Source: Coprobacillaceae bacterium UN01-12pH3A (GTDB taxonomy: Bacteria > Bacillota_I > Bacilli_A > Erysipelotrichales > Coprobacillaceae). From it: DNA of 64,000 nucleotides. A model generated the notes under the pieces. It worked only from the letters and a program-made list of their open reading frames with translations. It was not told where the DNA came from and did no database searches. Below, in pieces: positions 19,658 to 36,331 of the stretch. How positions within the stretch are numbered: the first letter of the stretch is position 1; each line of letters starts with the position of its first letter. Location: NCBI GenBank assembly GCA_027676805.1, contig JAQENU010000002.1, positions 186,001 through 250,000 on the forward strand. The letters run 5' to 3'. The translations under genes were made by a program, and so were the position numbers.

Positions 19658-20383
19658 TTAAAAAGTATCATTTTCTATTCCTATTAGTTGAATATTTACT
19701 TCACCGCCATTCATTTTTTCTTTATAATTATCAAGCTTATAAGATTCAATCTGTATAACTGCCTTTGTTATTCCCTGTGGGATAACTCGATTCAGCTTGA
19801 CCGCAGTCACTGCCTCCCCAGGAGGAACTAATTTACTTTCGTAAATAACTTCTCTATTTTCTTCCAATACAATTGTATATTTAAAATAGCATGGATTTTG
19901 ATCTGGATTCCACAGTGCTAAATAGACCATATCTGTATTTGCTATCATTTTAACGTCTCCGTAGCCTGGAATGATAATCTTATCCGGATCCATTAATTCA
20001 CTGATTTCAATATTTGGCGTATATTTTTCTGATCCCGGATCAATATTGGGAACATTGTTTTTATAGTAGAAAACAATAGCTACGATACTCATTGTTAATA
20101 ACGCAATAACAATCCATTCCCAAATGCGATGTACTAAGACTGCTAGATAAGTATCTTTTTCTATTTCTAAATAAGCTTTAATCTTATATTTTAAATAGCC
20201 TTTTGGCAAAGGATAATAATCCTGTATCTCTTCTCCTATTCTTAGCGTTCCCTTCTTTTTTCCTGTGATTCTTCCAATGGCACCTTCTACCCGGTAACCC
20301 CCGCTTCCATTAGGATATCGTTTTTCCCATTCTTTTTTTGACAAGTACTGTATCGCTTCTATTGATATGTCTTGTTCATCCAT
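19658..20383 (-). CDS. Membrane-anchored surface-operon protein, paralogue B
   Basis: A 241-residue protein with a cytoplasmic N-terminal domain (1-90, including GGYRVEGAIGRITGKKKG), one helix (about 92-112), then an outside C-terminal beta-rich domain. It is clearly paralogous to the next gene: both share the N-terminal GGY.V.G.IG pattern, IPGYG, YLALWNP..NPCYFKYTIV and the SKL.PPGEAVT segment. It is the last gene of the switch-linked operon. I do not recognise a named family. The outside domain looks like an adhesin-associated or pilus-like beta module. Confidence 0.7.
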   Translation of the reverse strand: MDEQDISIEAIQYLSKKEWEKRYPNGSGGYRVEGAIGRITGKKKGTLRIGEEIQDYYPLPKGYLKYKIKAYLEIEKDTYLAVLVHRIWEWIVIALLTMSIVAIVFYYKNNVPNIDPGSEKYTPNIEISELMDPDKIIIPGYGDVKMIANTDMVYLALWNPDQNPCYFKYTIVLEENREVIYESKLVPPGEAVTAVKLNRVIPQGITKAVIQIESYKLDNYKEKMNGGEVNIQLIGIENDTF

Positions 20384-20469
20384 ATATTTCTCTCCTTTCT
20401 CTTTTCCTTACCTAAACAAAACATTAATAGATGATTTACTTAGGGAAGGAAAATGAAAACTTCATTTCC

Positions 20470-21243
20470 CTAATTATCTGATTTTACAGCTATCAGTTCA
20501 GCTTTTGAAACTCCCCCATTTAAAGAAACTTCTTTATCATCTAAAGAAAAGGTATCTATTTTAATTTCTATTGGATATTTTCCTTCTGCTATCGTTTGAT
20601 TAAATTTAATTTCAGTTACTGCCTTTCCAGGCATAATCAGTTTGCTTTGATAAAGGACTTTTTCATTTTCAAGGTTAACAATCGTAAATTTAAAATAGCA
20701 TGGATTATTGGGCGGATTCCACAGCGCCACATAAGCTGTATCCGTCCCAGCATTCATTAAAATTTCTTTATATCCCGGTATTGCGATATGATTTGGATCT
20801 GTCACAATATTAAGCTGTTCAGGTGGAGTATAATCCATTGCCCCAGTTTCTATATCGCTTTCTTTTACCAAATGCATTGTGCCCGCTACCAGTAATGCAG
20901 CAATGGAAATAGCCACGAAGACTATTAGCAAATTTCGGCATCGTCTTTTTCCAATAACTGCGAGATATTGATTTTCACCTACAGCTATATACCCCTCAAT
21001 ACCATATTGGTATTTCGAATAATGCAAGGCATAGAAATCGAGCTTCGTTTCTCCTAAATCAACTTGACCTTGTTTGTTTATGAGTCCGCTGCCAATTCCT
21101 CCTACCACAATGTATCCTCCACGTGGATACATCTTTTTAATCTTTTTCTTACTGTAATAACGCAGACTGGAAGACTTGTTCAGATTTAGCTTTTTATCAT
21201 ATTCTTCTTCCTTTATGTAGTGGTAATTTTGTTCTATGCTCAT
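20470..21243 (-). CDS. Membrane-anchored surface-operon protein, paralogue A
   Basis: A 257-residue paralogue of the downstream gene, with the same order: cytoplasmic domain (1-105, GGYIVVGGIGSG), one helix (about 106-126), outside domain (IPGYKEILMNAGTD, VALWNPPNNPCYFKFTIV, SKLIMPGKAVTEIKFN). It starts after AAGGAGGACAG. The pair shows a tandem duplication that has since diverged. It may be a membrane anchor or assembly factor for the small secreted protein encoded 30 bp upstream, but this is inferred from gene order only. Confidence 0.7.
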   Translation of the reverse strand: MSIEQNYHYIKEEEYDKKLNLNKSSSLRYYSKKKIKKMYPRGGYIVVGGIGSGLINKQGQVDLGETKLDFYALHYSKYQYGIEGYIAVGENQYLAVIGKRRCRNLLIVFVAISIAALLVAGTMHLVKESDIETGAMDYTPPEQLNIVTDPNHIAIPGYKEILMNAGTDTAYVALWNPPNNPCYFKFTIVNLENEKVLYQSKLIMPGKAVTEIKFNQTIAEGKYPIEIKIDTFSLDDKEVSLNGGVSKAELIAVKSDN

Positions 21244-21273
21244 CTATTACTGTCCTCCTTGTCTGCCTTTTAA

Positions 21274-21777
21274 TTAGTTCGTAATTGTGTAAGTTAATGT
21301 ATCTGTATGTGAACCCGTTTGAGTGGCTGTCCCTGTTAAGGTTGCAGTTCCGGAAATAGTGGTAGTAGCACTTGATACTGTCCCAACTGATACCATAGCC
21401 GTTGACATGATATTTGACCCATATTGAACGACATAAGATACCGGATCAGCTCCTCCTACTTCTAATTTATACCCATTTGCTGAAGTCACTTCTACAGTGA
21501 TAGGTGAAGTTGGCAATGTTCCACCATTAACCGAAACCAGTTCAACATCTACATTGATAACTGGATTACTATCTGTAAATACGACACTGCTTGGAATTGT
21601 TACTGCCCAAGATGGGTTATCTGGATGATCCGGATCAGGTATTCCATGTGTATTGTCATACTGTACATTTGTTGTTCCGGTTTCTGATGATCCTGCCGCA
21701 AAGGCTGATACTGTCAGCATAGGTAGCATTAAAGCTAAAGATAGTGTTGCTGCAAAAATTTTGTTTGTTTTTTTCAT
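21274..21777 (-). CDS. Small secreted beta-rich surface protein
   Basis: A 167-residue protein with a textbook signal peptide (cleavage after SAFA at about 27) and a mature Ser/Thr/Gly-rich, beta-strand-rich body with no cysteine: WAVTIPSSVVFTDSNPV, VSVNGGTLPTSPITVEV, then a Thr-rich tail ending DTLTYTITN. The W.VTIPSSV segment is common to small secreted Firmicute proteins near BspA-like or pilin-like loci. There is no LPxTG or membrane tail, so it is secreted or held by partners. It could be the major subunit of a surface layer or fibre. The start follows AGGAGGAA. Confidence 0.75.
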   Translation of the reverse strand: MKKTNKIFAATLSLALMLPMLTVSAFAAGSSETGTTNVQYDNTHGIPDPDHPDNPSWAVTIPSSVVFTDSNPVINVDVELVSVNGGTLPTSPITVEVTSANGYKLEVGGADPVSYVVQYGSNIMSTAMVSVGTVSSATTTISGTATLTGTATQTGSHTDTLTYTITN

Positions 21778-21842
21778 TTCTAAATTCCTCCTAATTTTTA
21801 TTGATGTTTAAACAGTTCTCACTGCCATATATGAAAGGCACA

Positions 21843-22556
21843 CTACTTCCTTTTATATGCATTCTTTGAATGACTTCTTTTAAAACTCATACTCCAATAT
21901 ATAATAAACGCACTTGAAATAATCAAACCATAATCGTACCACTTGTTGAGTGAATTTCCCGTTGATACATGTTCCGATTCGGTAATGTTCTGTTCTGGCG
22001 AAGAAGGTGGCTTTGCATTATCTCCGCCATTTATATTTTGATCTGGTATTTTATCATCTGGCTTACTACTCCCCGAATTATTTCCTCCAGATGTATTTCC
22101 CTCGGGGTTATCCTCCTCGGGTATATCATCATCCGTATGAGGTGGGATGATTTCAAACTCAATATATAAATGGGCAGTTCCCTCACCTATATGAATTGTC
22201 ATTGTCTGATTGATCACCTGTTCAATCCAATTTTCTGTTTCGATACTAGCGGCGCTTTCATAACCAACGCTCTTTAAGCGATAGCCATTATCCGCTCTTA
22301 TGACAAAATACTTCTGAGCAGGTGAGAGAAAATCGTATTGGACGATTCCATTTCGTATACTTTGACTGCCATCTATAACGACCCCATTTCCGCTGACATG
22401 AACAGATAAAGAACATTTCAAATCCGGTATATAAGAAACTGTGACATGTCTGTCTTCATCATGTCGGACCTTTATTTGGGCAAAGACAAATGGATTTATT
22501 TGAAAAAGCATAATAAACATTACAATTGGGAAAAGCATTAAACGATGGCGTTTCAT
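21843..22556 (-). CDS. Exported protein with Pro/Asn/Gly-rich stalk and C-terminal membrane anchor
   Basis: A 237-residue surface protein: signal peptide (1-27), a globular part (about 30-140, including SGNGVVIDGS and a bacterial-repeat-like DNGYRLKSVGY), a low-complexity stalk (about 145-195), then VSTGN, a hydrophobic helix and the basic tail KRSHSKNAYKRK. The end has the layout of a sortase signal, but VSTGN is not LPxTG, so the anchoring mode is open. It overlaps the LRR gene by 4 bp (ATGA), so it is translated with it. Confidence 0.72.
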   Translation of the reverse strand: MKRHRLMLFPIVMFIMLFQINPFVFAQIKVRHDEDRHVTVSYIPDLKCSLSVHVSGNGVVIDGSQSIRNGIVQYDFLSPAQKYFVIRADNGYRLKSVGYESAASIETENWIEQVINQTMTIHIGEGTAHLYIEFEIIPPHTDDDIPEEDNPEGNTSGGNNSGSSKPDDKIPDQNINGGDNAKPPSSPEQNITESEHVSTGNSLNKWYDYGLIISSAFIIYWSMSFKRSHSKNAYKRK

Positions 22557-25500
22557 GAATCTCCACCTTCTTCATAACGAATATAAAAATCCATTGTGCC
22601 ACGATATAGCCCCGGTCCATTCGTTGATTCTCCAAAAGCTTTTAATTGGAAAACGCTTGAAGTAACATCTTCGCCTAATGTTGCTAGATCATTTAAACTG
22701 TTTTCGTATCGGTTCCCGTCTTGATCAAACACATATACTGTATAAAAGTCTTCTGAATCCTGACTTTCAATTTTAAAACTGGTTTCAGCCTGAATATGGA
22801 AATATCCTGAAAATAGGCTTGTATCCGTTGTTGGTTTTATTTTTATTGTTTCGTTTGTAGCAGCAGCCTGTTCACTAAAATCTTCTGTTCTTTTCAGCTC
22901 AATTGACATAGGAATTTCTACCAATGCCATCGGTGAATCATTAAGAATCTCTATCTGTACCTGTTTCTTTCCTAGTCCGCCATCATAAATTAAGGTAACT
23001 GTATAGGTTTTTTCTCGCTCTCCATTATGAATTCTTGCCATATCTGCATCTGAGATCATTAGCTTAGATAAATCCGGTTCACTTCCATCTGATATTGTAA
23101 CAATGGCATTCATTTTATGAATGAGATTCATCATTGTAATGTCAGCTGACTGAACAGGATATAATTTTACGTTATCAGCTTCAATTGTACAGTTGGTTGA
23201 TCTAAGAGTCACATCTTTATATGCACTCATCAAACTCCCAGATCGCATTGAATTCGCATTCACACGTATCGTTACTGTTTCATTTTCAGCCATTGCATTG
23301 ACTTTCGCTATATCGGTTATACTGATGCTTAGCTCACTCAAAGGCAGATCCCCTGCTTCATCAAAGGCACGAGCCCCTACTAATGCTAACAATGAAGCTT
23401 CTGTAGCAGTGGCCGTTTCTGCCGATTTAATGGTTCCTCCAAATGCCTCAAGCGTAATGATCCCAATATCATTGATATCCACCGGATATTCGAGTACATA
23501 GCCGCTGATTCTATCTTCCGCTTTAAACACATAAGTCCCGTTGCTTGTTATATTGTATGTATAATAGCCGCTTTCTGGCCAAAGTGTACTGTCTAAATCA
23601 TTCAGTTTAGTCCCATCTGGCAGGGATACCCACCAAATCAGACTGGATACAGGTGCGGTTGCCTTGATCCGAATATCACGACGATATGCATTAGGATTGT
23701 TTACCACGCTATGTTCAAACTTAACAAATTCACCTTTATAGTAGACTTTCACTGTATTTGAAGCACCCCAAGGCTGATAGTTACTGATTAGCGGTCTTTC
23801 ATATCTTTCAAATCCTACAAGGATTGATTCCAAAGCATTTGTATCACTAAAAACATTACTTCCCAAACTAGTTACTCCATTGCCGATCTTTATAGTCGTT
23901 AAATGATTGCAGGAATCGAAAGCATAGTTTCCTATTCTTTTCACGTTGTCTGGAATCACTATTGACGTCAAACTATAATTACTGCTAAAAGCGTACTCTC
24001 CGATGTCCGTTACTCCGGTCCCAATCGTTATATTTTCTAAATTACTGCACCTAGAAAAAGCAGAACGTCCGATACTTGTGACATTACCTGGAATTACCAC
24101 CGACAATAGATTCTGACATCCAGAAAAGATAGAATCGCTTAACACTGTTATGCCACTTCCAATTACTGCCGAGGTTAAATTATTACAGTTATAAAAGGCA
24201 TACCTCCCTATAGTTTGTACACTATCTGGAATTACAACAGATACTAAGCTGATACAGTTAGAAAAAGCATATTCACCTATACTTTCCATATTTTCCGGAA
24301 GAATCACTAACGTTAAATTATCACAATCAGCAAAAACGGAATTTCCGATTTTTGTCACGCTATCAGGAATAACAATTGAGGTTACATTTATATTTGTTTG
24401 AAAAGCATTATCACCAATTTCTAAGACTGGCAGCGACACACCATTCACTATAAAATTATCTGGTATGGCAATATCACTATTCACTCCTAGATACTTAACA
24501 ACACTTTGAGATTCAGTATCGATAATAAAATCACCAATAATTTCAAAATTTTTCCATTTTATTACAGTACTGCTGGGAGCCCCCCACGGGTTCCCCGATA
24601 TAGATCCTTTCTCTTTCCCGGAGATATCAATCAATAACAATCCCACACAGTTAGAAAAAGCCATTGAGCCAATGCTTGTAACACTGTTGGGAATAACGAT
24701 TGTTGTCAGGGTTTCACAATTCAAAAAGACATAAGATCCTATACTGGTAACAGTATCAGGAATTGTGACAGATGGTAAAATACTACATCCTGAAAAAGCA
24801 TAATCCCCTATGCTAGTTATACTATTTGACATAACAATTGTTGTCAGCGACACACAATTTAAAAAAGCATAACCTTCAATTTTTGTCACACTGTTAGAAA
24901 TCACTACAGAGGTCAGAGCGCTGCAGTAAGAAAAAAGATATCTCCCTATGCTCGTAATATTGTTGGGAATAACAATCGATACCAGAGAAGTACAATTACT
25001 AAAGGCTGAACGTCCTAAACTGGTTACACTATCAGGAATGATGAAAGAAGTAAATCCACAGCTTGCAAATGCCGAATCTGCTATACTTGTCACTCCGCTT
25101 CCTATGGTTATCGATGTCAAATTACGACACTTGTCAAAAGTACTAGCCTTAATGGTTGTTACATCATCCGGAATGACAATAGAGCCCAGTTTAGAACATT
25201 CGCTAAAAGCAGAATTCCCAATATTAGCGACACTATTTCCCATTGTTATTGTCTGCAACTGATAACACATTGCAAAGGCATATTTTCCGATACTTGTGAC
25301 ACTATTACCAATTGTTGCTGATGTCATCGTGGTACAGACAGAAAAAGCGGAATCACCGATACTTGTGACACTGTCTGGTATCGTGATAGAAGTTAAATAC
25401 TGACATCTGTAAAACGCATAATTTCCGATGCTGGTGACATTGTTTCCAATTGTTACAGACGTCATACGATCGCAAGAAGCAAAGGCATAAGCACCAATGG

Positions 25501-27301
25501 TTCGTACACTATCGGGAATAACAACTGAGGTTAAGTTTACTACATTTTGAAAAGCTCCAGTTTCAATTCCTTTGACGGAATAGCTTATTCCATCGATAAC
25601 AAAACTTTCTGGTATTGTCACCTCTCCACCAGCGCCTACATATTTCGCAATACTTTTTGTTACCGTATCAAATATAAAATCACCTATTGTTTCAAAACCA
25701 CTCCACTTTACAAACGTTGTGACAGGCGCTGACCATGGTTCTCCGGATATAGACCCCTTCTCTTTTCCAGGAATATCAATAAGTACTAGATTATTGCAAT
25801 TAGTAAAAGCTGAAATCGCTATATCAGTGACACCACTTCCAATTGTTATTGTTGTTAAATTGCTGCAGTTAGCAAAGACATAATCTGAAATATTAATTAC
25901 ACTGTCAGGTATTATGACAGAGGTTAAAGTAGTATTATTTTGAAAGGCTCTTTTACTAATATTTGTTGTTGGATAACTCATCCCATCTATAATAAAGCTG
26001 TCAGGAATCGTCACTGCCCCACCGACACCTATATATTTCGCTACACTTTTTGTAACGGTATCAAATATAAAATCACCTACTGTTTCAAAGCCTTTCCATT
26101 TTACAAATGTTGTATTAGGTGCTGACCATGGCTCACCGGGAATTAAACCATTTTCTTTTCCAGGAATATCAATTATCAATAAATCCTTAAGACCAGAAAA
26201 AACTAAATTCCCTATACTCGTTACACTACTTCCAATCGTCACCTGTGTGATATTCTTACAATCGTAAAAAGTGCCATTCCCTATAGTTGTTATTCCATTT
26301 CCAAATGTCACTATTGATAGTGCCGTGCAATTTCTAAAAAACATTTCGCCTATACTTATTACATTATCAGGAATAACAATTGAGGTTAAACTGGTGCAGT
26401 AGCCAAAAGCAGAATTTCCTATACTCGTTACACCATTTCCCAAGATAATTGAAGTTAAATTCACACACCCATAAAAAACATTTTCTTTTATATCTAATAC
26501 ATTATCAGGAATAACGATAGAATCAAGTCTACTGCAATTATAAAAGGCTGAAGCATTTATCGTTGTGACATTATTTCCGATGATAATTGATGTTAAACGG
26601 GAACAATTAGAAAAAGTACTGTTGTTTATGCTCGTGATGCCATTTCCTAACGTTACCGAATTCAAACTGCTGCACTTATAAAAGGCTGAATCTCCCAGCT
26701 CTGTAACACTGTCTGGAAGGACAATATCCCCCATCATACTAGGATTATTTTGAAACGCTCTCTTTCCTATTCCTTTTAGCTTTGTTGTATTAAAACTAAT
26801 ATATGTTAACTGTTGTCCAGAAAAGGCCTCGTCCTGAATATAATACACATCTATTCCGTTGATCTGCTCTGGAATAATAATGTTTTTAGGTGCATTAGGA
26901 TTAGTGCTGTATCCCGTTATTGTATTTGTTTCTTCATCAAAAACAAACCAACTTTCTTCTGCTACTTTCCCCTGTCCGCTCAAGTCGTTTTCATTTTCAT
27001 TAGTCATTTCATTGTCATCGACTGCTTGAGGACTCCCCTTCATAACACTTGTTTCTTGTTCTTCGAATTCAATTTCCTTTGAACAATCTATTTTCGGCAT
27101 GGTCTCAACATTATCCTTTATATCATTATCCACCAATAGTTGTTCTTCTTTAGCATCTACTAATGTCGGTATTTCTTCAATTACTTGTGTTTCGAGTTCT
27201 TCTCCAGCTGCAAAAATCAATGGATGAAAAGACGGGATATAAAGATAACTTAAGATTATTACCATGATCAGCAAAATTTTAAATATTACTTTTTTATGCA
27301 T
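22553..27301 (-). CDS. Giant BspA-type leucine-rich-repeat surface protein
   Basis: A 1582-residue exported protein. After a signal/anchor (about 6-32) and an acidic segment come over thirty BspA/LRR_5 repeats of about 23 residues (consensus ..IG..AF.NC..LTSI.IPDSVT.), about residues 125-1180. The array is broken by three related modules near residues 390, 525 and 910 (IDIPGKEKGSISGEPW, FVKW, GDFIFDTVTKS) and ends in a fourth, diverged PWGASNTVKVYYKG. The C-terminal 400 residues are non-repeat beta domains with no sorting signal. BspA-like proteins bind host matrix or other microbes. It overlaps the Rrf2 stop by 8 bp; GGAAGGAGAGG lies upstream. Confidence 0.9.
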   Translation of the reverse strand: MHKKVIFKILLIMVIILSYLYIPSFHPLIFAAGEELETQVIEEIPTLVDAKEEQLLVDNDIKDNVETMPKIDCSKEIEFEEQETSVMKGSPQAVDDNEMTNENENDLSGQGKVAEESWFVFDEETNTITGYSTNPNAPKNIIIPEQINGIDVYYIQDEAFSGQQLTYISFNTTKLKGIGKRAFQNNPSMMGDIVLPDSVTELGDSAFYKCSSLNSVTLGNGITSINNSTFSNCSRLTSIIIGNNVTTINASAFYNCSRLDSIVIPDNVLDIKENVFYGCVNLTSIILGNGVTSIGNSAFGYCTSLTSIVIPDNVISIGEMFFRNCTALSIVTFGNGITTIGNGTFYDCKNITQVTIGSSVTSIGNLVFSGLKDLLIIDIPGKENGLIPGEPWSAPNTTFVKWKGFETVGDFIFDTVTKSVAKYIGVGGAVTIPDSFIIDGMSYPTTNISKRAFQNNTTLTSVIIPDSVINISDYVFANCSNLTTITIGSGVTDIAISAFTNCNNLVLIDIPGKEKGSISGEPWSAPVTTFVKWSGFETIGDFIFDTVTKSIAKYVGAGGEVTIPESFVIDGISYSVKGIETGAFQNVVNLTSVVIPDSVRTIGAYAFASCDRMTSVTIGNNVTSIGNYAFYRCQYLTSITIPDSVTSIGDSAFSVCTTMTSATIGNSVTSIGKYAFAMCYQLQTITMGNSVANIGNSAFSECSKLGSIVIPDDVTTIKASTFDKCRNLTSITIGSGVTSIADSAFASCGFTSFIIPDSVTSLGRSAFSNCTSLVSIVIPNNITSIGRYLFSYCSALTSVVISNSVTKIEGYAFLNCVSLTTIVMSNSITSIGDYAFSGCSILPSVTIPDTVTSIGSYVFLNCETLTTIVIPNSVTSIGSMAFSNCVGLLLIDISGKEKGSISGNPWGAPSSTVIKWKNFEIIGDFIIDTESQSVVKYLGVNSDIAIPDNFIVNGVSLPVLEIGDNAFQTNINVTSIVIPDSVTKIGNSVFADCDNLTLVILPENMESIGEYAFSNCISLVSVVIPDSVQTIGRYAFYNCNNLTSAVIGSGITVLSDSIFSGCQNLLSVVIPGNVTSIGRSAFSRCSNLENITIGTGVTDIGEYAFSSNYSLTSIVIPDNVKRIGNYAFDSCNHLTTIKIGNGVTSLGSNVFSDTNALESILVGFERYERPLISNYQPWGASNTVKVYYKGEFVKFEHSVVNNPNAYRRDIRIKATAPVSSLIWWVSLPDGTKLNDLDSTLWPESGYYTYNITSNGTYVFKAEDRISGYVLEYPVDINDIGIITLEAFGGTIKSAETATATEASLLALVGARAFDEAGDLPLSELSISITDIAKVNAMAENETVTIRVNANSMRSGSLMSAYKDVTLRSTNCTIEADNVKLYPVQSADITMMNLIHKMNAIVTISDGSEPDLSKLMISDADMARIHNGEREKTYTVTLIYDGGLGKKQVQIEILNDSPMALVEIPMSIELKRTEDFSEQAAATNETIKIKPTTDTSLFSGYFHIQAETSFKIESQDSEDFYTVYVFDQDGNRYENSLNDLATLGEDVTSSVFQLKAFGESTNGPGLYRGTMDFYIRYEEGGDS

Positions 27302-27746
27302 TGTGCTGCCTCTCCTTCCCTTGAATGATTTTTACCTTTCCTAATTCTCCACCTAATATTTTTTCTACATTAATATTCTTTAATAATTTTTCTATTTCTT
27401 CCTGTAATCCTTCATAGAAAACATGAATCTTACAAGCATTTGTAAGCTGTTTACTGCAATAATGATCATCTTCTAAACAGCGATTGATCTTTGTTGTAGT
27501 CTCCATCAAAGATACAATATCCCATAAAGTAATATCCCTTATACCAATTGGCAAACTATAACCACCATCAATACCACGGTGGCATTTCACTAAACCACCT
27601 TTTTCCAACTGCTTCATGATCTTGATTGTATAATTGACAGTCATGCCTGTTTTTTCTGCAACCTTTGCTGATGATATGATTTTGTTTTCACTGGCTAGAC
27701 ATACAATCGCTCGAATTGCATAATCTGTACTTATCCTTAACTGCAT
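27294..27746 (-). CDS. Rrf2 family regulator heading the surface operon
   Basis: A 150-residue regulator with the Rrf2 winged helix (MQLRISTDYAIRAIVCLA, VAEKTGMTVNYTIKIMKQLEKGGLV, GGYSLP). Cys90, Cys97, Cys105 and His108 are spaced close to the Fe-S ligands of IscR/NsrR, so an Fe-S or redox sensor is possible. The start at 27746 follows GAAGGAG. It is the first gene of a six-gene operon, and the palindrome ATTACTT-TTC-AAGTAAT at 27812-27828 lies in its leader, which suits autoregulation. It would add environmental control to the recombination switch upstream. Confidence 0.88.
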   Translation of the reverse strand: MQLRISTDYAIRAIVCLASENKIISSAKVAEKTGMTVNYTIKIMKQLEKGGLVKCHRGIDGGYSLPIGIRDITLWDIVSLMETTTKINRCLEDDHYCSKQLTNACKIHVFYEGLQEEIEKLLKNINVEKILGGELGKVKIIQGKERQHNA

Positions 27747-27811
27747 TCTCTTCGCTCCTTCAATCATACTGAACTATCCAAGTATACTTTTATGACATTT
27801 TCCCCTATATC

Positions 27812-27828
27812 ATTACTTTTCAAGTAAT
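27812..27828. promoter_or_regulatory. Candidate Rrf2 operator in the surface-operon leader
   Basis: A perfect palindrome with 7-bp arms ATTACTT/AAGTAAT around TTC, 66 bp upstream of the Rrf2 start codon. The size and place suit a dimeric repressor site; binding is inferred. Confidence 0.45.
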
Positions 27829-27877
27829 ATATTCAAGATTAATTCATGTAAAGTCACCCATGTATTTTATGATTTCA

Positions 27878-27899
27878 CTACATAATGGATATTATGTTG
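27878..27899 (+). repeat. Left inverted repeat (IRL) of the switch
   Basis: A 22-bp recombination-site candidate: left arm CTACATAA, centre TGGATA, right arm TTATGTTG. Confidence 0.8.
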
Positions 27900-27912
27900 T
27901 TGTATAAACAAA

Positions 27913-27934
27913 AAAAGTGCCTTTCAGCACTTTT
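27913..27934 (-). terminator. Intrinsic terminator inside the invertible segment
   Basis: The stem AAAAGTGC / GCACTTTT with a 6-nt loop gives a run of seven T residues on the minus strand. In this orientation it would stop transcripts coming from the recombinase side before they reach the surface operon. Confidence 0.8.
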
Positions 27935-28041
27935 GTTAAGTTTTTTCATTTATCTGCAGGGCAAATTATTCCATATTATATATTCCTTATGACGAATTAT
28001 AAATAATTTTGTCATTTTTCTCTTGCCTAACTCCTACTAGT

Positions 28042-28069
28042 TTGGTAAGATGTAATTAGAAATTATAGT
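28042..28069 (+). promoter_or_regulatory. Promoter-like sequence inside the invertible segment (pointing away from the operon)
   Basis: TTGGTA at 28042-28047 and TATAGT at 28064-28069, spaced 16 bp. An overlapping pair, TTGCCT (28023) and TAAGAT (28046) with 17 bp, is an alternative. Both read rightward, away from the surface operon. After inversion between the repeats the -10 box would lie near 27927-27932 on the minus strand, giving a leader of about 175 nt before the Rrf2 start. Confidence 0.45.
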
Positions 28070-28096
28070 GACTTACAAATTTATTTTTATATTTTA

Positions 28097-28118
28097 CTAC
28101 ATAATATCCATTATGTAG
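28097..28118 (-). repeat. Right inverted repeat (IRR) of the switch
   Basis: The inverted copy of IRL with both arms perfect (CTACATAA and TTATGTAG) around the centre read in the opposite direction, 12 bp beyond the recombinase stop codon. Confidence 0.8.
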
Positions 28119-28130
28119 TTTTTTTATTTA

Positions 28131-28976
28131 TTAACTGCTGATCAGATCTAATCTTGATAGTTGTCGTTCGTATTCTATTCCTGTTGTCATCGTATAAATT
28201 CTTGTTGTTTCAATAGAGGAATGTCCTAATATGTCTGCCAATCTTACTAAATCCTTTTCTAATCGGTAATATGTAAAGGCAAACAAATGTCTGAGATTAT
28301 GTGGGAATACTTTGGTTCTTTCTACTTTTGCGTCAACACATAAATCTTTCATCATTGTCCAGATGTTGCTTCTATCCAATGCTTTTCCACTTCTTGTGAT
28401 AAAAATTGGACCTGTGGTTATATGTTCTTCTTTACAATAGCTGCTAAGCATTTTTCTCAGCTTTTTTTGTATAAAGATAATACGAATTTTTCCTTTATTA
28501 TTTATATAAGCTCTTCCTTCTTTCAAGGATTCTACAGTTAGGTAGCGATGTTCACTTACACGGATCCCGGTACTGCAAATCGTTTGCAGTAAAACATATA
28601 AACGTTTATTTTTCTTCTCTTTTGCACTTTGCAAGAGGCGATTATATTCTGCTTTTGTTAACTCTTTTGCTTCATCACAGATAATTCTTCTCTGCATTTT
28701 TAAAAGTTTTACTTTCAGTTCATGAAAGCTTAAAAAATCCCAAAAGCCATTTAATGCAACTAAAATACTATTAGTACTCGCCGGTTTATAATTTTTTGTA
28801 AGCATCTCTTTAAATTCCAAAACCTTTGTTTTAGTAATCAAAATGTCACCATTCATAAAGTCATAAAATTTATGGATATCACGGAGATATTTTTCTATTG
28901 TTTTAGTGCTCCTTTCCTCACTTAATAAATAAGTCTGGTAATCCTTAACAAAAGATTCGTAAATCAAAAATTCCAT
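28131..28976 (-). CDS. XerD-like tyrosine recombinase, probable invertase of the surface switch
   Basis: A 281-residue tyrosine recombinase with a SAM-like core-binding domain (about 1-95) and a complete catalytic domain: Arg139 (TGIRVSE), Lys in NNKGKIR, His226-x2-Arg229 (HNLRH), His252 (LGHSS) and nucleophile Tyr261 (TRIYT). Length and domains fit small phase-variation invertases as well as Xer. The ATG at 28976 follows AAAGGAG; a TTG two codons upstream is less likely. It stops 13 bp before the right inverted repeat, and no phage or transposon genes are near. It most likely flips the 27878-28118 segment. Confidence 0.88.
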   Translation of the reverse strand: MEFLIYESFVKDYQTYLLSEERSTKTIEKYLRDIHKFYDFMNGDILITKTKVLEFKEMLTKNYKPASTNSILVALNGFWDFLSFHELKVKLLKMQRRIICDEAKELTKAEYNRLLQSAKEKKNKRLYVLLQTICSTGIRVSEHRYLTVESLKEGRAYINNKGKIRIIFIQKKLRKMLSSYCKEEHITTGPIFITRSGKALDRSNIWTMMKDLCVDAKVERTKVFPHNLRHLFAFTYYRLEKDLVRLADILGHSSIETTRIYTMTTGIEYERQLSRLDLISS

Positions 28977-29407
28977 ATTCAACTCTCCTTTTTCATTATT
29001 ATGCCCTTATATTTATCATTTTATAATGTGTGTATTACTAAGTAAAAGAAAATCCTTTATTCGAGATTTTTTTATGATAGAAACACTTTTCTTTATAAAT
29101 TCTAAAACTAATTATCGCATTCCTACCAAAAAAAACAAGGTTATGGATTAGATACCTTAACCTATAAGAAGTGATTTTATAAATAATTATCCGCCATATG
29201 CTTCGTTATTATTTTAGTGTAGACTGAGATAATGAACAGCCAATTTCAAAAAGTGGAGTATCTGTTTTATATGTTTTAGTATACATATGCAGATCTTTTG
29301 TTATCAACATCAGAATTACTTCTTGTCCCCTTTACACTTCGTTTTTTAATTGTTATGGTAGTATTAACAACTATATTATTGAATTAATAAAAAAAGGGAG
29401 AGTAACT
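28977..29407. other. AT-rich intergenic region between recombinase and HAD gene
   Basis: There are 431 bp between divergent genes. It holds the recombinase promoter area, a weak AGGTTA/TAACCT inverted repeat at about 29129-29155 and, at its right end, a HAD promoter candidate, TTGTTA (29350-29355) with TATATT (29372-29377) spaced 16 bp. No open reading frame with a ribosome site, RNA gene or repeat was recognised. Confidence 0.6.
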
Positions 29408-30468: not shown

Positions 30469-32079
30469 TCATTCGGGCAGGTCTACCTTGCCAACGAAAG
30501 AGTAATAAATATCAATGTCCTGTCTGCGTGTGCCGTTCTCGTCATAGCTGCACTCATGCACAACGATTTTCTCCACAAACTCACGCAAAAGGGTAGGGGT
30601 AAGTTCTTCAAAGCTGGTGTACTTGCGGACAACATTCATAAACTTTTCTGCGTTTACCGTGGCTTCCTGCGCTTTGGAAAGCTCTGCCCGGATAGCGGCG
30701 GCTCTCTCTTTCAGTTCTTTCTGCTCGGCTTCATAGTCTGCCGACAGCTCCGTGAAACGCTCGTCTGAAATGCGCCCGGTCACGCTGTCCTCATACAGCC
30801 GCTTGAAGATAGCGGATAACTCGCTGATACGCTTCTCGGCGGCTTCCAGCTCCTTTTTCCTTGCGGCGTTCCTGCGCTTGCCCCCGTCCTCGTTCTGCTC
30901 GATCAGCAGCTTCATAAACCGGGCTTCGTGCTTCGCTGCATAGCTGGTGACTTTCCGCAGATTGTCGGTCACTCCGGCGGTCAACAGGTCGGTGCGGATA
31001 AAGTGCGCCGTACAGTCACGGGTACGCTTCTTGTAGCTCCCGCAGATATAACAATCCTGCTTGCGGGTGGCGTTCTGGTAACGCTGCTGGTAAAGGACGC
31101 TGCCGCAGTCGGCACAAAAGAGTATGCCGGAGAATAAGCCCACTTCATCATAGCGGTTCGGGCGTTTGCGCTGCTTGCGTAACTCCTGCACACGCTCCCA
31201 CATCTGGGTGTCAATGATAGGCTCATGGTGGTTCTCGAAAATCGCCTGTTTCTCAATGGGGTTCTCTACGCTGTGCTTGGTCTTGTAGGACGGCTTCTCC
31301 GTCTTGAAGTTTACCAGACAGCCCGTGTACTCCCTGTTTTCAAGGATATGTACCACGGTATTGGTCGCCCACTTGCACTCATAGCCGGGGTGGTAGCGGC
31401 GGGTGCTTCCCGTCCGACGGTATTCCAGCGTTCCCGGCGTGGGGATCTCCTGCTCTGTGAGCATACGGGCTATCTTGGTCGGCCCGTTCCCGGCAAGGCA
31501 CAAGCTGTAAATCTGCCGCACAACAGGGGCGGCTTCCCCGTCAATGATAAAATTTTCGTCCTCGTCCATAAAGTAGCCGTATACGGGTTTGCTCGTGACG
31601 GGCTTCCCGCTCATACCCTTAGACCGTTTTACTGCTTTGATTTTCTTGCTCGTATCTCTCACCAGCCATTCGTTAAAAATGTTCCGCAGAGGGGCAAAAT
31701 CATTGTCGCCCTGTGCGCTGTCCACTCCGTCATTGATAGCGATAAAGCGGACGCCTTTCTGTGGGAAAATCATTTCCGTATACATTCCCACTTGCAGATA
31801 GTTTCGCCCTAACCGTGACATATCCTTGACGATAACGGTGCCGACTTTTCCGGCTTCAATGTCCGCAAGCATGGCTTGAAAACCGGGTCTTTGGAAGTTC
31901 GCCCCAGAATAACCGTCATCTGTGTACCATTGCAGATTGGAAAAGCCGTTCTGCTTCGCATAGGTTTCAAGAATACGCTTCTGGTTTGAAATAGAATTGC
32001 TCTCACCTTGCAGCTCGTCCTCGTGGGATAATCTCGGATAAAGGGCGGTAATAAGGTTTCGGGTGGTCTGTCTTAACAT
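30469..32079 (-). CDS. Large serine recombinase of the mobile element (TnpX/TndX-like)
   Basis: A 536-residue recombinase. The resolvase domain carries the catalytic Ser in YPRLSHEDE, the Arg pair in SRLGRNYLQ, and GYSGANFQRPGF. The recombinase domain follows, then a zinc-ribbon-like part (CADCGSVLYQQ...CYICGSYKKRTRDC), and a coiled coil (about 395-470) typical of this class. It would excise and insert the element. The start was set at the ATG at 32079, 7 nt after GGAGG; the upstream in-frame ATG overlaps that ribosome site. It lies at the left end with TnpW next to it, as in Tn4451-type elements. Confidence 0.9.
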   Translation of the reverse strand: MLRQTTRNLITALYPRLSHEDELQGESNSISNQKRILETYAKQNGFSNLQWYTDDGYSGANFQRPGFQAMLADIEAGKVGTVIVKDMSRLGRNYLQVGMYTEMIFPQKGVRFIAINDGVDSAQGDNDFAPLRNIFNEWLVRDTSKKIKAVKRSKGMSGKPVTSKPVYGYFMDEDENFIIDGEAAPVVRQIYSLCLAGNGPTKIARMLTEQEIPTPGTLEYRRTGSTRRYHPGYECKWATNTVVHILENREYTGCLVNFKTEKPSYKTKHSVENPIEKQAIFENHHEPIIDTQMWERVQELRKQRKRPNRYDEVGLFSGILFCADCGSVLYQQRYQNATRKQDCYICGSYKKRTRDCTAHFIRTDLLTAGVTDNLRKVTSYAAKHEARFMKLLIEQNEDGGKRRNAARKKELEAAEKRISELSAIFKRLYEDSVTGRISDERFTELSADYEAEQKELKERAAAIRAELSKAQEATVNAEKFMNVVRKYTSFEELTPTLLREFVEKIVVHECSYDENGTRRQDIDIYYSFVGKVDLPE

Positions 32080-32179
32080 AGTGTCCTCCATTTCCGACAG
32101 CCAGCCCCACTATTCCGTATGACTATCATACCACACGCCGGGGCTGGCTGTACAGTCCTTTCTGCTTCTTTACGTCCCG

Positions 32180-32362
32180 TCAAATTGCCGATTTTTGTGT
32201 AGCAGCTTCCGCTTCCAGCACTTTCAGCATTTTATCGGCGGCGGTGGCGGTGGTGTCCTGCTTGAAATAGCCGGAAACGACAAGGACAGAATTACCTATG
32301 CGGATTTCCGTCACGCAATCCGGGCGGCGGGTGCTGCGGTCATTCTTTGGGGTGTTGGTCAT
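32180..32362 (-). CDS. tnpW: TnpW family transposon-encoded protein
   Basis: A 60-residue protein (MTNTPKNDRS..., core EIRIGNSVLVVSGYFKQDTTATAADKMLKVLEAE) matching the small TnpW proteins carried next to TnpX-type recombinases. The function is unknown, though it resembles a DNA-modulating accessory factor in size and place. It starts at 32362 after GAAAGGAG and overlaps the upstream ATPase gene by 4 bp. Confidence 0.8.
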   Translation of the reverse strand: MTNTPKNDRSTRRPDCVTEIRIGNSVLVVSGYFKQDTTATAADKMLKVLEAEAATQKSAI

Positions 32363-33216
32363 AGGCGGCTCTCCTTTCTGTTCATCAGCTTTTTCAGTTG
32401 TCCCATTTTCTCCTGCGCCGTGGCTTTTCGGAAGTTGCTCCCGGTAAAGCGGACAGGAGAACACATTTCAATCAGACGGTCATAAATGCGGGCGTGGGCG
32501 GTGTCCTCCGGGTGCTGCAAGTCCTCCAGCGTGAGATTAGTCGTGACGATCAGCGGCCTGCCGCTGCGGTAACGGCTGTCAATCACGTTGTAGACCTGCT
32601 CTAAGCCGTATTCCGTTCCCCGTTCCATTCCAAAATCGTCAAGGATAAGCAGCGGGAAGCTGCAAAGTCGGGAGATATATTCATTCCTGCCCTCAAAGCT
32701 GGCGGCAAGGTCACCCAATATCAATGCAAAGTTTGTCATGCACACGGGGATTTCACGCTCCATAAGGGCATTTGCGATACAGCCCGCAAAATAGCTCTTG
32801 CCTGTGCCAACGCCGCCCCATAGCAGATAGCCAATGTTGCGCTCTTTCATGGTTTCCCAGTTCTCCACATAGAAATGGGCGTGTTCCATTTGCGGGCACT
32901 TGCCGTTGTCGTTCTCAAACGTCCAGCCCTGCATAGCCGGGTCTGTAAAGCCCCGCCGCTTCAACCGCTCGACAGTTTCAAGGTGACTGCGCTGTTTCTC
33001 TGCGGCTTCCCGTTCCTCACGCTCTGCCCGCTGGCAGTCACATTCTGCCGGGTGGCGGTCACGCCCCAGCCATGCGGCGGTTTCTTTGGGGAAATAGCCC
33101 TCTTTGGGCTTGTGGCACTTCCCGCAGTATAAAAGCCCGTCCTCGCCGGTGTAGTCCTCCGGCTCCGGCGTGGTGTCGGTCATATTCAAAATCATTTCAT
33201 CAAATCCATTCGTCAT
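32359..33216 (-). CDS. DnaC-like ATP-binding protein (helicase loader)
   Basis: A 285-residue AAA+ protein with an N-terminal zinc-like segment (CGKCHKPKEGYF...PAECDCQ), Walker A GGVGTGKSYFAG, Walker B LLILDDFGMERG and sensor I VTTNLTLEDL. DnaC/DnaI-like loaders place the replicative helicase. Together with the overlapping replisome organiser it suggests the element replicates while mobile. The start overlaps the upstream stop by 4 bp (ATGA). Confidence 0.87.
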   Translation of the reverse strand: MTNGFDEMILNMTDTTPEPEDYTGEDGLLYCGKCHKPKEGYFPKETAAWLGRDRHPAECDCQRAEREEREAAEKQRSHLETVERLKRRGFTDPAMQGWTFENDNGKCPQMEHAHFYVENWETMKERNIGYLLWGGVGTGKSYFAGCIANALMEREIPVCMTNFALILGDLAASFEGRNEYISRLCSFPLLILDDFGMERGTEYGLEQVYNVIDSRYRSGRPLIVTTNLTLEDLQHPEDTAHARIYDRLIEMCSPVRFTGSNFRKATAQEKMGQLKKLMNRKESRL

Positions 33217-33971
33217 AAGCTCTCGCCCTCCTTACAGGTATAATCGGGTATGCCCTTTTTCGGGGCTTTCTTGGCTGCGTCCTCCTGCGCCCACTTGAAA
33301 ATCGTGGCTGCATGGCTCTTGTATTTCCTCCCGCTGGAAGCGATATGGCAGGATAGGCGGTCAATGTAATACTCCCACTTGCCGGGAAGCTCTGTTTTCA
33401 GCCCGTCAAGCTCCGTATCGGAAAGAATGACATTGTGGTATCTGCCATAGGCGGCGGGGGCGGGGTGTCCCGTTTCTAACTCTCTCTCTTTTTCTATTTC
33501 TATATCTATCTCTTTCTCTATCTCTATCTCTGGTGGACAAATGTCCGCTCGATATGGTGGACATTTGTCCGCCCCTGTCTGCGGCAGGGCTTTTTGTTCC
33601 TGCAAAGCCAGCCGCGCCCTGCGCTTGCGCTCCCCCTCGGTAGAGGACTGGCCGATTAAAAGCTCAATGTTGCTCATGTAGAGTGCGCCGCTTGGCAAAG
33701 GCTCCACAAGCCCCAGCTTCATAAAGATTTTCAAAGCTCTCTCTACGGTACCTACCTGCTGGCGGGTAATGGTCGCAATCATCTGGGCGGTGTAGGGGAT
33801 ATTCTCGTCAAGCTGCAATTTCCCGCCGTTTTTCAGCGATTTCAAGTACAGCTTCAAGAGAATGTTGGAATAGATAACGCCGTCCTGCATACTTTCCAGC
33901 AGAACGATTGCATCATCGTCAAAATAGCTCTCTTTCAGCTTGAGGTAGTAATATTTGCGGTTATCTGCCAT
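33213..33971 (-). CDS. Phage-type replisome organiser protein
   Basis: A 252-residue protein whose N-terminal winged-helix domain (KYYYLKLKESYFDDDAIVLLESMQDG, YSNILLKLYLKSLKNGGKL) matches the phage replisome organiser N-terminal family, which binds the origin and recruits the loader. A low-complexity Glu/Ile linker at about 160-180 is encoded by a pyrimidine-repeat tract. The C-terminal helical part ends with KWAQEDAAKKAPKKG. The start at 33971 follows AAAGGAGG. It acts with the DnaC-like gene it overlaps. Confidence 0.82.
   Translation of the reverse strand: MADNRKYYYLKLKESYFDDDAIVLLESMQDGVIYSNILLKLYLKSLKNGGKLQLDENIPYTAQMIATITRQQVGTVERALKIFMKLGLVEPLPSGALYMSNIELLIGQSSTEGERKRRARLALQEQKALPQTGADKCPPYRADICPPEIEIEKEIDIEIEKERELETGHPAPAAYGRYHNVILSDTELDGLKTELPGKWEYYIDRLSCHIASSGRKYKSHAATIFKWAQEDAAKKAPKKGIPDYTCKEGESL
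33480..33540. repeat. Low-complexity pyrimidine/purine tract within the replisome organiser gene
   Basis: About 60 bp of irregular TCTCTTTC / TATCTC repeats encoding an alternating Glu-Ile/Lys linker. Such tracts are prone to slippage and would change linker length or frame. Confidence 0.7.
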
Positions 33972-34152
33972 AGGCTGCGTCCTCCTTTTTCCAGCGTTTG
34001 GAATAATAGCGAGGGCATAGTATGATAACCGCCCGGAAGCTCTGTTTGCAGTCACGGGTGCAGCCCCGGCATAGGTCGTTGTAAGTGATACGGTTGCGGT
34101 GGTTGAGGAAGAAAGACCATTCCAGCCGCCGCTTCTTGCTCATTCTCGGCAA
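33961..34152 (-). CDS. Small basic cysteine-containing element protein
   Basis: A 63-residue basic protein with Cys-x2-Cys-x3-Cys (LCRGCTRDCKQ) and one later Cys, possibly a metal knuckle. The likely start is TTG at 34152, 7 nt after AGGAG; an ATG three codons in is spaced too far from the ribosome site. It overlaps the start of the replisome organiser by 11 bp. The function is unknown. Its operon place suggests a DNA-binding accessory to replication or mobilisation. Confidence 0.65.
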   Translation of the reverse strand: MPRMSKKRRLEWSFFLNHRNRITYNDLCRGCTRDCKQSFRAVIILCPRYYSKRWKKEDAAYGR

Positions 34153-34338
34153 TGGTAAGCTCCTTTCTGCCGTTCCTATCGGTGTAGCGGGATAGGGGGC
34201 ATTTTCTGTATGTTCTCGGTATCATTTTCGGGCTTTTTCTGCCCTGTAAGCCCCGTTTGGAAGTCGGGGAGTATTGCGGTAAGGGTTCATATCATACCTG
34301 TATTTTTGTAGGGTTTCGGTATCATTTCGGGGCGGTCT

Positions 34339-35970
34339 TTAACGCTCCTGTTCACGCTTTTTCTGCTGGCTCGGTGCGCCCCTTAAAATCTGGTCGATAT
34401 TGCGTCTGACTGTCTGAAGCTCCTGCGCCCGCTGGCGTTTCTCCCGGTAGTCGTTATATCCGGCGTTCTTCTGGACGGTAAGCTGCTCAATCTCCCTTTG
34501 CAGGGCTTTGCTGGCTGGCAGCTTGGTTATTCCATGCTCCCGGAAATAACGGGCGGCTGTGTCCGCTATGATAAAATCGCTTTCGTGCTGTTCCCGGTAG
34601 GCTCTCCGGGCTTTCTCCGATTTCTGCGCTTTCAGACCGTCACGGGCGGGCTTCGTGCCGATATAGCCCAAAAGGTTGCGCTGCAATTCCTTTTTCTCCC
34701 GGATAGCGGCTTCCAGCCCTTTCAGTCCGGCAAGGCTCTCCTGCGTGGCGGTGTTGGCTGCGGAAATGGCAGCGTCCAGCTCGTCCGGGGAAGAAAAGCC
34801 ATACTGCTGGTAGAGCATGAGGGTAGCCGACATCTGTTTGAGGTTGTGCATGGTCGCCCACTTCTCATAGCCCCGTCCTTTCCCCTCGGCTCGCTTGGCG
34901 GCTATGTCTACCATGCGCTGTACAGCGTCATTGTTCGGGGCGTTTTTCGCTTCTTTTTTCGTCCGTAAGCGGTCTTTGATACTGCCGGGGTATTCCGCTA
35001 TGGCTGCGGGTTTTTCGGCGGCTCTGGCGGCGTTCTGCTCCAAAACGGAGAGGACAGCAGCCCGGTCAAAATCGTCCCCCAGCTTCCGGGCGGTAATTGG
35101 CTTCGTCCTGTCCGGCGTGAGGTAACTTAGCCGCCCCCGGCTCTCCTTGACGGTCACACCATGCCGGAGAAGCAGGGCGGCAAACTCATCAAAGCCGGAA
35201 GCAGCGGCAAGGGCTTCCCGGATAGTCCGGCGCAGCTTCGCCTTATCCGTTTCAAACTTGGTCTGCCGGGGCGCGATACCGTCCGCAGCAATAGGGGCGT
35301 TGGCTCTGTCAAGGGCAGCCTGTCCTTTCTTCTGCGCCCAATACTCACGCTCGGTAATGCGTTCTTTGCTGCCGTTCAAAAGGTCTATCTGGTAAAGCCC
35401 CTCGCTGTGGCACATCTCCATGACTTCGGCTTTCAGATAGTTCATAGCTGCGTCCGTACAGCGGTGCTTGCAGCCTGCTTTCCTGTCCGCTGGCCTGTCC
35501 ATGTGGGGCAGCATGGGAACCTCCGCAATCCGCAGACTGTTAATGACGATATGCACATGGATATTTTCGGTGTGGCTGTGTCCGTCCGGGTGGGTGCAGA
35601 CAAGGGCCTGGTGTCCGGGGAAATGCTCGGCGCAGAACTTCTCGCCCAGCTCCTGCGCCCGATCAACGGTCAAGCCGTTGTCCGGGCCGTCCCGTGGGTC
35701 AAAGCTGATGATGTAGTGGTGGCTCTTTACGTCCTCCCGTTTCTGGTTCTTGCCGTAGCGGAGATTGGAGCGCATACAGGCAACGGCAAAATCCTCCCCG
35801 CCACAATTCAGAGAGGATATGCGGTAGTCTACCCTCGGTATGAGCCGCCCGTCTGCGTCAAGGGTGGGCTTCATGGTAAACTCGTCATGCTCGAATGTGA
35901 GGTATTTTTCAGCGTCCCCGTAGTTGGCATTTTTAGAGCTGATATGTTTGAGTATCGCCAACGGCTTCAC
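34339..35970 (-). CDS. Relaxase/mobilisation nuclease (MobP/TnpZ-like)
   Basis: A 543-residue relaxase. The N-terminal domain has the conserved HHYIISFDP and the metal-binding triad HTENIHVHIVINS (HxHxH type), typical of the MobA/VirD2-like MOBP group. The active-site Tyr is probably in the NANYGDAEKYLTF segment. The C-terminal half (about 330-540) is helical and charged. It would nick at oriT and lead transfer. The start is GTG at 35970 or TTG at 35961, both near AGGTG. It overlaps mobC by 38 bp. Confidence 0.9.
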   Translation of the reverse strand: MKPLAILKHISSKNANYGDAEKYLTFEHDEFTMKPTLDADGRLIPRVDYRISSLNCGGEDFAVACMRSNLRYGKNQKREDVKSHHYIISFDPRDGPDNGLTVDRAQELGEKFCAEHFPGHQALVCTHPDGHSHTENIHVHIVINSLRIAEVPMLPHMDRPADRKAGCKHRCTDAAMNYLKAEVMEMCHSEGLYQIDLLNGSKERITEREYWAQKKGQAALDRANAPIAADGIAPRQTKFETDKAKLRRTIREALAAASGFDEFAALLLRHGVTVKESRGRLSYLTPDRTKPITARKLGDDFDRAAVLSVLEQNAARAAEKPAAIAEYPGSIKDRLRTKKEAKNAPNNDAVQRMVDIAAKRAEGKGRGYEKWATMHNLKQMSATLMLYQQYGFSSPDELDAAISAANTATQESLAGLKGLEAAIREKKELQRNLLGYIGTKPARDGLKAQKSEKARRAYREQHESDFIIADTAARYFREHGITKLPASKALQREIEQLTVQKNAGYNDYREKRQRAQELQTVRRNIDQILRGAPSQQKKREQER

Positions 35971-36331
35971 CTACTTTCTGCAAGACTTCAAACTTCAAGG
36001 CGGCAAGGTCGGCGGCGGCTCCCCGCACTTCCTTTTCCAGCCCCCGGTAGGGGCTTCCGTATTCGTTCAGGCTCCGGGCAATCTGGTTTAAGTTGCCGCC
36101 GATTTTCCCGTACTCTGCCGTGAGCTTGGAGAGGGCGGCAAGCAGCCCGTCATTGACCGGGGAAACGGTGACAATGGGGCGTATGGTCGCTTTCCGTATG
36201 GCTTGCCGGATAAACTCGGACTGGCTGATTTCATAAGCCGCCAGCCGCCCGGTGAAGTCGGCGTATTCTTCATCGGTCATGCGGGTCTTTACCACATGAC
36301 GGCGGTGGGGCGTATTGTATTTCTTTCGCAT
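35933..36331 (-). CDS. mobC: MobC-like relaxosome accessory protein
   Basis: A 132-residue protein with an N-terminal ribbon-helix-helix-like part (VVKTRMTDEEYADFTGRLAAYEISQSEFIRQAIR) and a C-terminal MobC domain (YGKIGGNLNQIARSLNEYGSPYRGLEKEV). MobC proteins open oriT DNA for the relaxase. The start at 36331 follows GAAAGGAGGTC; a longer reading frame upstream crosses the oriT candidate and is not coding. Confidence 0.88.
   Translation of the reverse strand: MRKKYNTPHRRHVVKTRMTDEEYADFTGRLAAYEISQSEFIRQAIRKATIRPIVTVSPVNDGLLAALSKLTAEYGKIGGNLNQIARSLNEYGSPYRGLEKEVRGAAADLAALKFEVLQKVGEAVGDTQTYQL

Follow-up and report, generated by a model that had tools for sequence, protein, structure and literature searches.

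A probable invertible promoter cassette beside an Xer-like tyrosine recombinase, and its relatives among gut Firmicutes

Invertible promoters operated by tyrosine recombinases are well known. In the fim switch of E. coli, the invertible promoter segment lies beside its recombinase, whose transcript is affected by the switch. The locus described here, found in a stretch of 64 kb that was analyzed as a whole (the window), is similar in that an invertible promoter segment adjoins the recombinase, a likeness drawn without comparison of the sites. In fim, a terminator present in one phase affects the fimE mRNA (PMC2784873), whereas here it is the fixed site itself that is terminator-like, against antisense transcription. 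As in the RecV switches of C. difficile (cwpV and flagellar), the recombinase is a tyrosine recombinase of the XerC/D type (PMC2784873, PMC5903667), and the target, as in cwpV, is at the cell surface, the described ON/OFF phase variation being that of cwpV (PMC2784873). However, RecV acts on several genomic sites, while here recombinase and switch form one unit (PMC2784873, PMC5903667), and cwpV has its promoter outside the invertible segment (PMC2784873), while here it is probably inside. The locus also shares with the XerC/XerD-dif system of chromosome dimer resolution (PMC5357621) the conserved residues, structural relatives, arm sequence, and 6-nt central region between dyad arms, but in that system there is one chromosomal site, whereas here we find an inverted palindromic pair beside a promoter and a recombinase below the equivalog cut-offs.

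Judged by dimensions and gene arrangement, the family to which the locus belongs is probably of the kind of inverton group 139 of Clostridia, here in an Erysipelotrichales-like host. Group 139 (invertase group 35, gut Clostridia) comprises 33 invertons, 32 of them from Clostridia; both orientations appear in read counts, with shifts on passage for two cited members and on surface growth for one (PMC11892184). There, as in the window, a tyrosine-type recombinase gene adjoins short inverted repeats, and the repeat starts of two members, 231 and 241 nt apart, fall inside the range of the present family (219 nt in the window), although the hosts differ (PMC11892184). Along similar lines, 14 of 15 inversion-positive Firmicutes were Clostridia (PMC5903667), and the median number of invertons per genome in Bacillus-like Firmicutes was 0 (PMC11892184). 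The main text of PMC11892184 makes no mention of palindrom-, Xer or antisense.

The first-pass annotation had pointed to two inverted 22-bp sites, 21/22 identical and 197 bp apart, and these were re-found in the window together with a recombinase gene:

27878-27899, minus-strand copy CAACATAATATCCATTATGTAG: IR2, the recombination site on the operon side, differing from IR1 at one position
28097-28118, plus-strand copy CTACATAATATCCATTATGTAG: IR1, the recombination site on the recombinase side; perfect dyad CTACATAA-TATCCA-TTATGTAG; same place and arms in relatives
28131-28982, minus strand: Xer-like tyrosine recombinase of 283 aa with a listed TTG start (ATG at 28976); Phage_integrase and N-terminal SAM-like domain

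The interior of the pair spans 27900-28096, so that, as in invertons, inverted repeats flank a short intergenic segment. With up to three mismatches allowed, IR1 and IR2 were the sole two matches in the 64 kb, compared to a mean of 0.01 in 100 shuffles (largest 1, none with 2); chance repeats are thereby ruled out. Both sites had been described as dyads around an asymmetric 6-bp centre. This holds for IR1, but the dyad of IR2 is broken at one base, and, since the bounding T and A are symmetric, the strictly asymmetric centre is 4 nt long (ATCC). The 18-nt core of IR1 begins 14 nt past the recombinase stop. The window 18-mer had two IMG/VR matches, with no partner site beside either of them in the part searched, and no plasmid matched window positions 27000-29400. 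A single orientation was observed at this locus.

The recombinase had been reported as complete and carrying its catalytic residues, and so it proved. The open reading frame is intact, Pfam Phage_integrase was matched at 1.5e-25 along with the SAM-like N-domain, and R141, K165, H228, R231, H254, and Y263, which we take to be the catalytic residues, were invariant in an alignment of 21 sequences. The scores stayed below the NCBIfam equivalog cut-offs for XerD (123.6 of 329.6 bits), XerC (111.6 of 335.15), XerA (137.4 of 220), and XerS (60 of 267). Its best structural relatives were solved XerC-like, XerA, and XerD chains, and among its relatives at ca. 60% identity are proteins that bear the names [Clostridium] innocuum, Beduini, and Amedibacillus.

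Beyond IR2, the six-gene surface operon of the first-pass annotation was also present (Rrf2, BspA/LRR_5, and four small ORFs down to 19658), with all genes on the minus strand and overlaps or gaps of <90 nt:

27766-27785, minus strand: ATACTTGGATAGTTCAGTAT in the leader of the operon, possibly an operator of the Rrf2 type, read by eye
27294-27767, minus strand: Rrf2-family regulator, first operon gene; likely start ATG 27746, family match from residue 8
22553-27301, minus strand: BspA-type leucine-rich-repeat protein, 1582 aa; LRR_5 1.8e-230, signal-like N-terminus by eye
21843-22556, minus strand: operon gene 3, 237 aa; by eye, signal-like N-terminus and C-terminal membrane stretch; no Pfam family above cut-off
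21274-21777, minus strand: operon gene 4, 167 aa; by eye, signal-like N-terminus; no Pfam family
20470-21243, minus strand: operon gene 5, 257 aa; by eye, membrane stretch; no Pfam family above cut-off
19658-20383, minus strand: operon gene 6, 241 aa; by eye, resembles gene 5; no Pfam family
18716-19564, minus strand: EAL-domain (c-di-GMP phosphodiesterase-like) gene, 93 nt past gene 6; possible seventh gene

The listed rrf2 start (27767) is probably seven codons too early. The operator-like ATACTTGGATAGTTCAGTAT, whose likeness to IscR/Rrf2 sites is our assumption, suggests that Rrf2 could gate the operon even in the ON state. No terminator match was found between gene 6 and the EAL gene, and the reach of the switch may extend through the latter to c-di-GMP turnover. 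Over positions 18500-28150, terminator-like matches numbered 7 against a shuffle mean of 4.1, which is less unusual than the hairpin within the segment (see below); on the operon strand they occur inside rrf2 (27583), inside bspA (26699), and at 22280. Promoter-like matches over the same range were at chance level (35, shuffle mean 41.7), including those on the operon strand inside the operon, and no sigma70-like match was found between IR2 and rrf2 in the promoter scan, which extended up to 28200. The operon would presumably lack any other promoter.

We searched a profile of the 21-sequence alignment against 391 genomes from the class of a Lachnospiraceae genome (G347) at E<=1e-75. The recombinase was present in 60 of them, with up to six copies each, at 90 places. 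The working set of 102 loci contains 88 of these 90 places, 4 plasmid loci, 9 of 10 from the viral collection, and the window; 2 partial places, L047 (a duplicate of L046), the more general Xer relatives L001-L030, and the weak relatives L031 and L032/L041 were left out, the scan detecting no sites at L032 and L041. Because the loci are mutually related, their counts are not independent events. Sites were scanned as ACATAAT-N4-ATTATGT with up to two mismatches, from -40 to +520 of the recombinase stop, and at least two dif-like sites were found in 83 of the 102 loci. The first-site 18-nt core started a median of 11 nt past the recombinase stop, and paired sites were a median of 262 nt apart.

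The centres of the sites behaved very differently within and between loci. Comparing the 4-nt centres of the first and last site, 81 of the 83 loci had inverted-identical and 2 direct-identical centres, with none falling in neither class, while random expectation was 2.8 matches. When only the 12 arm letters were used (ACATAA-N6-TTATGT, up to one mismatch; 74 of 75 loci usable), the 6-nt centre was identical within 72 of 74 pairs and was palindromic in none of the 74. The two exceptions were L082 (a stray third site) and L098 (two direct sites at a contig end). Between loci, the inner four columns were almost free (1.65 to 1.99 bits), T and A predominated at the outer positions of the centre (0.10 and 0.60 bits), and flanks more than 3 nt outside the sites fell to about composition level. 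Strand exchange by tyrosine recombinases is expected to need an identical centre, and centres that are identical in pairs and variable among loci match the pattern that would be expected under such a requirement.

Of the 19 loci without two motif sites, 6 end within 300 nt past the stop, 6 carry pairs with divergent arms (L035, L048, L049, L051, L159, L161), and 7 had no site pair despite sequence past the stop (L110, L125, L136, L142, L155, L156, L169). In a search across the phylum, 4 of 249 genomes had the recombinase, giving six loci outside the main set (L172-L177), three of them with inverted-identical pairs and three (L175-L177) without. Perfect sites occurred in 7 of 8 recombinase-bearing genomes, with 4 to 8 in each; G663, the remaining one, has different arms and therefore no perfect site. 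Of these 45 sites, 41 lie within the switch loci studied and 4 outside them (G706:C32, G706:C61:73294, G390:C53, and G390:C6:1-18). Repeats without the recombinase, the observation that the first-pass annotation had named as speaking against a switch, were not seen: none of 16 genomes lacking the recombinase at E<=1e-75 had a perfect site, and a reversed control pattern appeared in 1 of 24 genomes. Pairs of switches sharing a centre made up 4 of 44 within genomes versus 98 of 3,359 between genomes; centres within a genome are thus not kept apart beyond chance, which gives no support to the idea that distinct addresses evolved as a set.

Three or four sites were present in 16 of the 83 loci, the additional ones mostly as two tandem same-centre copies at one end; such copies are 32 to 34 nt apart in L090, L092, L105, L107, L108, L111, L121, and L126. 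In another six cases (L089, L097, L098, L138, L144, L154) the contig ends within or beside the switch. Such ends would be expected where an assembly is interrupted by reads that support both orientations.

Comparison of related loci points to inversion of the segment itself. Between L115 and L127, 1,235 bp up to and including the first site align collinearly (89%), after which the 254 bp that separate the sites can be aligned in inverted orientation only (80%). Likewise, L084 and L086 match collinearly both on the side of the recombinase (83%, 1,230 bp) and in the downstream gene (66%, 239 bp), while the segment between the sites is inverted (82%). The two differences are inversions exactly between the sites. 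The segments of L034 and L132 are 99.6% identical, and the window segment had no homologue among the family segments.

Of the 83 two-site loci, 82 had an inverted pair at least 80 nt apart, and 81 remained for promoter counts after L100 was dropped (Ns). We scored promoters with a simple sigma-A matrix, taking the best match on either strand. With inner site pairs, 73 of the 81 loci had a best match whose -10 end was separated by 40 to 70 nt from the outer end of the faced site; with the outermost pairs, 61 of 81 fell in a 42- to 68-nt slot, compared to a mean of 9.2 and a largest value of 15 in 20 shuffles. The best match was exactly TTGACA-17-TATAAT in 13 of 68. The slot promoter faced the downstream gene (ON) in 25 loci and the recombinase (OFF) in 47, with 9 undecided. 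Among 45 homologous segment pairs, both states were called in 37 (8 undecided); facing was opposite in all 13 inverted pairs and equal in 22 of the 24 pairs in the same orientation, with 2 of 24 disagreeing. The best internal stem-loop stood behind the promoter in 58 of 61 segments, although most of the space lies there anyway, and only 28 of the 61 had a T-rich tail. One genome contained a short-segment subtype (L147, L148, L150) with 131 nt between the sites and the -10 end 22 nt from the outer end of the site.

In the 74 loci with 600 nt past the second site, the nearest long ORF beyond that site faced the switch in 69, its start being a median of 70 nt away. Pfam searches on 61 mechanically chosen first ORFs gave, within the 25 commonest of 57 families, TetR 9, SPFH 5, dockerin 4, LRR_5 3, SLH 3, and Flg_new 3. 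Given this spread, surface proteins are only part of the targets, and the 9 of 61 first ORFs with TetR indicate that some switches flip a regulator and not a surface gene directly. Loci with TetR first, as seen by eye, include L084, L085, L086, L108, and L118. In a crude test, first genes were not richer than later ORFs in signal- or membrane-like stretches (26 of 69 vs 58 of 96).

Within the window segment, the elements that bear on its state are the following:

27913-27934, scored on both strands: terminator-like hairpin AAAAGTGCTGAAAGGCACTTTT, at the operon end of the segment in its present orientation
27975-28003, minus strand: another promoter-like match, TTTATA-17-TATAAT, directed at the operon but preceded on that side by the terminator
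28042-28069, plus strand: slot promoter TTGGTA-16-TATAGT, a weak match that faces away from the operon (OFF) and would face it after inversion
28119-28125, plus strand: run of seven T (T7) directly outside IR1, terminator-like with the IR1 hairpin and antisense to the recombinase

The intrinsic terminator facing the operon, already noted in the first pass, was recovered on both strands, and shuffles of 27700-28200 yielded a mean of 0.0 such matches (sd 0.2). The promoter-like boxes said to face away from the operon do exist, but matches in the same interval were no commoner than in shuffles (2, mean 3.7), and the best score was reached in 12% of 60 shuffles; the point that a promoter faces away therefore rests on comparative evidence. 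The slot promoter scored 10.7 compared to a family median of 15.8 for best slot scores (19 of 81 were lower), and it was outscored by the operon-facing match (13.3), so that a plain best-score rule calls the window ON, although the operon-facing match runs into the terminator. Position tells otherwise. Because the slot promoter faces the recombinase and its -10 end is 47 nt away from where the 18-nt IR1 core ends on the outside, a distance inside the family range, the window is judged to be OFF by promoter position, weak though this promoter is. The ON/OFF phase switch proposed earlier, with the window in its OFF state, is thus supported by the shared centres of its relatives, their outward promoter slot, and their inverted segments with a collinear recombinase side.

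The recombinase-side site showed a further regularity. As the sites are palindromic, their RNA folds into a hairpin, which for IR1 of the window has 10 pairs with its flanks (-9.0 kcal/mol). Across the 80 loci with both flanks, at least five T within 14 nt, reading outward into the recombinase, were found in 35, compared to 2 outside the second site and 2 and 2 on the inner sides; for at least four T, the numbers were 48, 13, 7, and 6. After other stop codons of the same loci, an antisense run of five T was found in 40 of 501 cases. The recombinase-side site with its outward T-run is probably a terminator that would end the OFF transcript before it becomes antisense to the recombinase, although the run of five T is missing in over half of the loci. 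Neither a recombination site doubling as a terminator nor a private-centre rule for this family was found in the open-access literature searched.

Taken together, 27878-28118 is in all likelihood an invertible promoter cassette worked by the adjacent Xer-like tyrosine recombinase, and we consider it a real switch of a known kind, very probably functional and in its OFF form. In the mechanism that we infer, in which inversion in this organism, promoter activity, and the roles of hairpin and Rrf2 are all predicted, the recombinase would bind the two palindromic dif-like sites (ACATAA-N6-TTATGT), exchange strands in the 6-nt centre, and flip the segment between them. In the OFF state, the cassette promoter at 28042-28069 would be directed away from the operon, its transcript stopping at the IR1 hairpin and T7 just short of the recombinase 3' end, while the internal terminator at 27913-27934 would block transcripts bound for the operon. 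Once the segment is inverted, transcription from the cassette promoter would cross IR2 and enter rrf2-bspA and the four further genes, with the terminator now sitting behind this promoter as insulation, and the Rrf2 protein may further gate the ON state. At the level of the family, three rules may apply jointly in a large, self-contained group of Xer-derived switches in gut Firmicutes: dif-like arms, shared by nearly all members, with a private, never palindromic centre; a set promoter distance; and a recombinase-side site that is also a terminator. We give this three-rule reading an even chance. Under it, a locus-specific centre would let only matching sites recombine, and the site-terminator would shield the recombinase from antisense transcription in OFF, keeping the switch reversible.

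Other explanations were considered. The locus could be a locked relic, that is, a former switch fixed in OFF, or one whose operon is driven from elsewhere while the promoter decayed; TTGGTA-16-TATAGT is weaker than the promoters of most relatives, and the other orientation was not seen at the window locus. Yet the recombinase is intact with all six conserved residues, the sites keep 21/22 identity, an identical centre, and consensus arms, and the IR1 T-run is still in place, which together make a relic unlikely. The weak promoter, along with the terminator in the segment, would also suit a switch of the cwpV kind, in which the promoter is outside (in the recombinase gene or upstream) and only an internal terminator is flipped. 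The dimensions are nearly equal to those of cwpV in C. difficile, where 21-bp repeats lie 195 bp apart, the promoter is outside, and the OFF transcript has been proposed to contain an intrinsic terminator (PMC2784873). However, such a switch is hard to reconcile with the family, in which 73 of 81 loci have their best promoter match at a fixed position within the segment, and in the present orientation it would also require an upstream promoter reading through the recombinase. Moreover, a flip would not remove the terminator, because the window hairpin scores on both strands. Given this hairpin and the promoter slot of the family, we rejected the terminator-only switch as distinctly improbable.

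A third explanation dispenses with switching altogether and takes the sites to serve dimer resolution or integration (dif/att), be it for the chromosome or for a mobile element. The arms do resemble Xer/dif half-sites, going by what we take to be the letters of dif, and a mobilizable element lies ca. 1.5 kb away (30469 onward). Nevertheless, dif is a 28-bp site that occurs once per genome (PMC3025954), whereas in the family inverted pairs enclose a promoter, the adjacent gene faces the pair in 69 of 74 loci, and the recombinase falls below the XerC, XerD, and XerS cut-offs. With inverted pairs, unmatched Xer cut-offs, and a family that contradicts it, this explanation was rejected as having hardly any probability.

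If the locus is, as we prefer, an invertible promoter cassette, a large BspA-type surface protein, an Rrf2 regulator, and perhaps a c-di-GMP phosphodiesterase are predicted to vary between cells of the host. What had been a guess from a single sequence has become a family whose rules can be tested. Its simple patterns (recombinase stop, ACATAA-N6-TTATGT, and promoter slot) can serve to look for such switches in assemblies without reads, and the variable centres could supply differently addressed recombination sites for one enzyme family.

With regard to the host, the leucyl aminopeptidase at 10011-11414 was 99% identical to one cluster, and its relatives in the list at 60 to 61% were Erysipelotrichaceae MAGs, Candidatus Stoquefichus, and Coprobacillus, from which we describe the host as Erysipelotrichales-like. 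No kin by this protein was found among 299 genomes of the class (E<=1e-120) or 249 of the phylum (E<=1e-100), an empty answer that is uninformative by itself. The mobilizable element near the switch (30469-41145, ca. 1.5 kb from the recombinase) carries the following genes:

30469-32091: large serine recombinase
34339-35970: relaxase-like protein
39226-41145: Tet(M/W/O/S)-family ribosomal protection gene

In a comparison of shared words, the genome nearest to the window had 24% in common with it, probably through the mobile element only.
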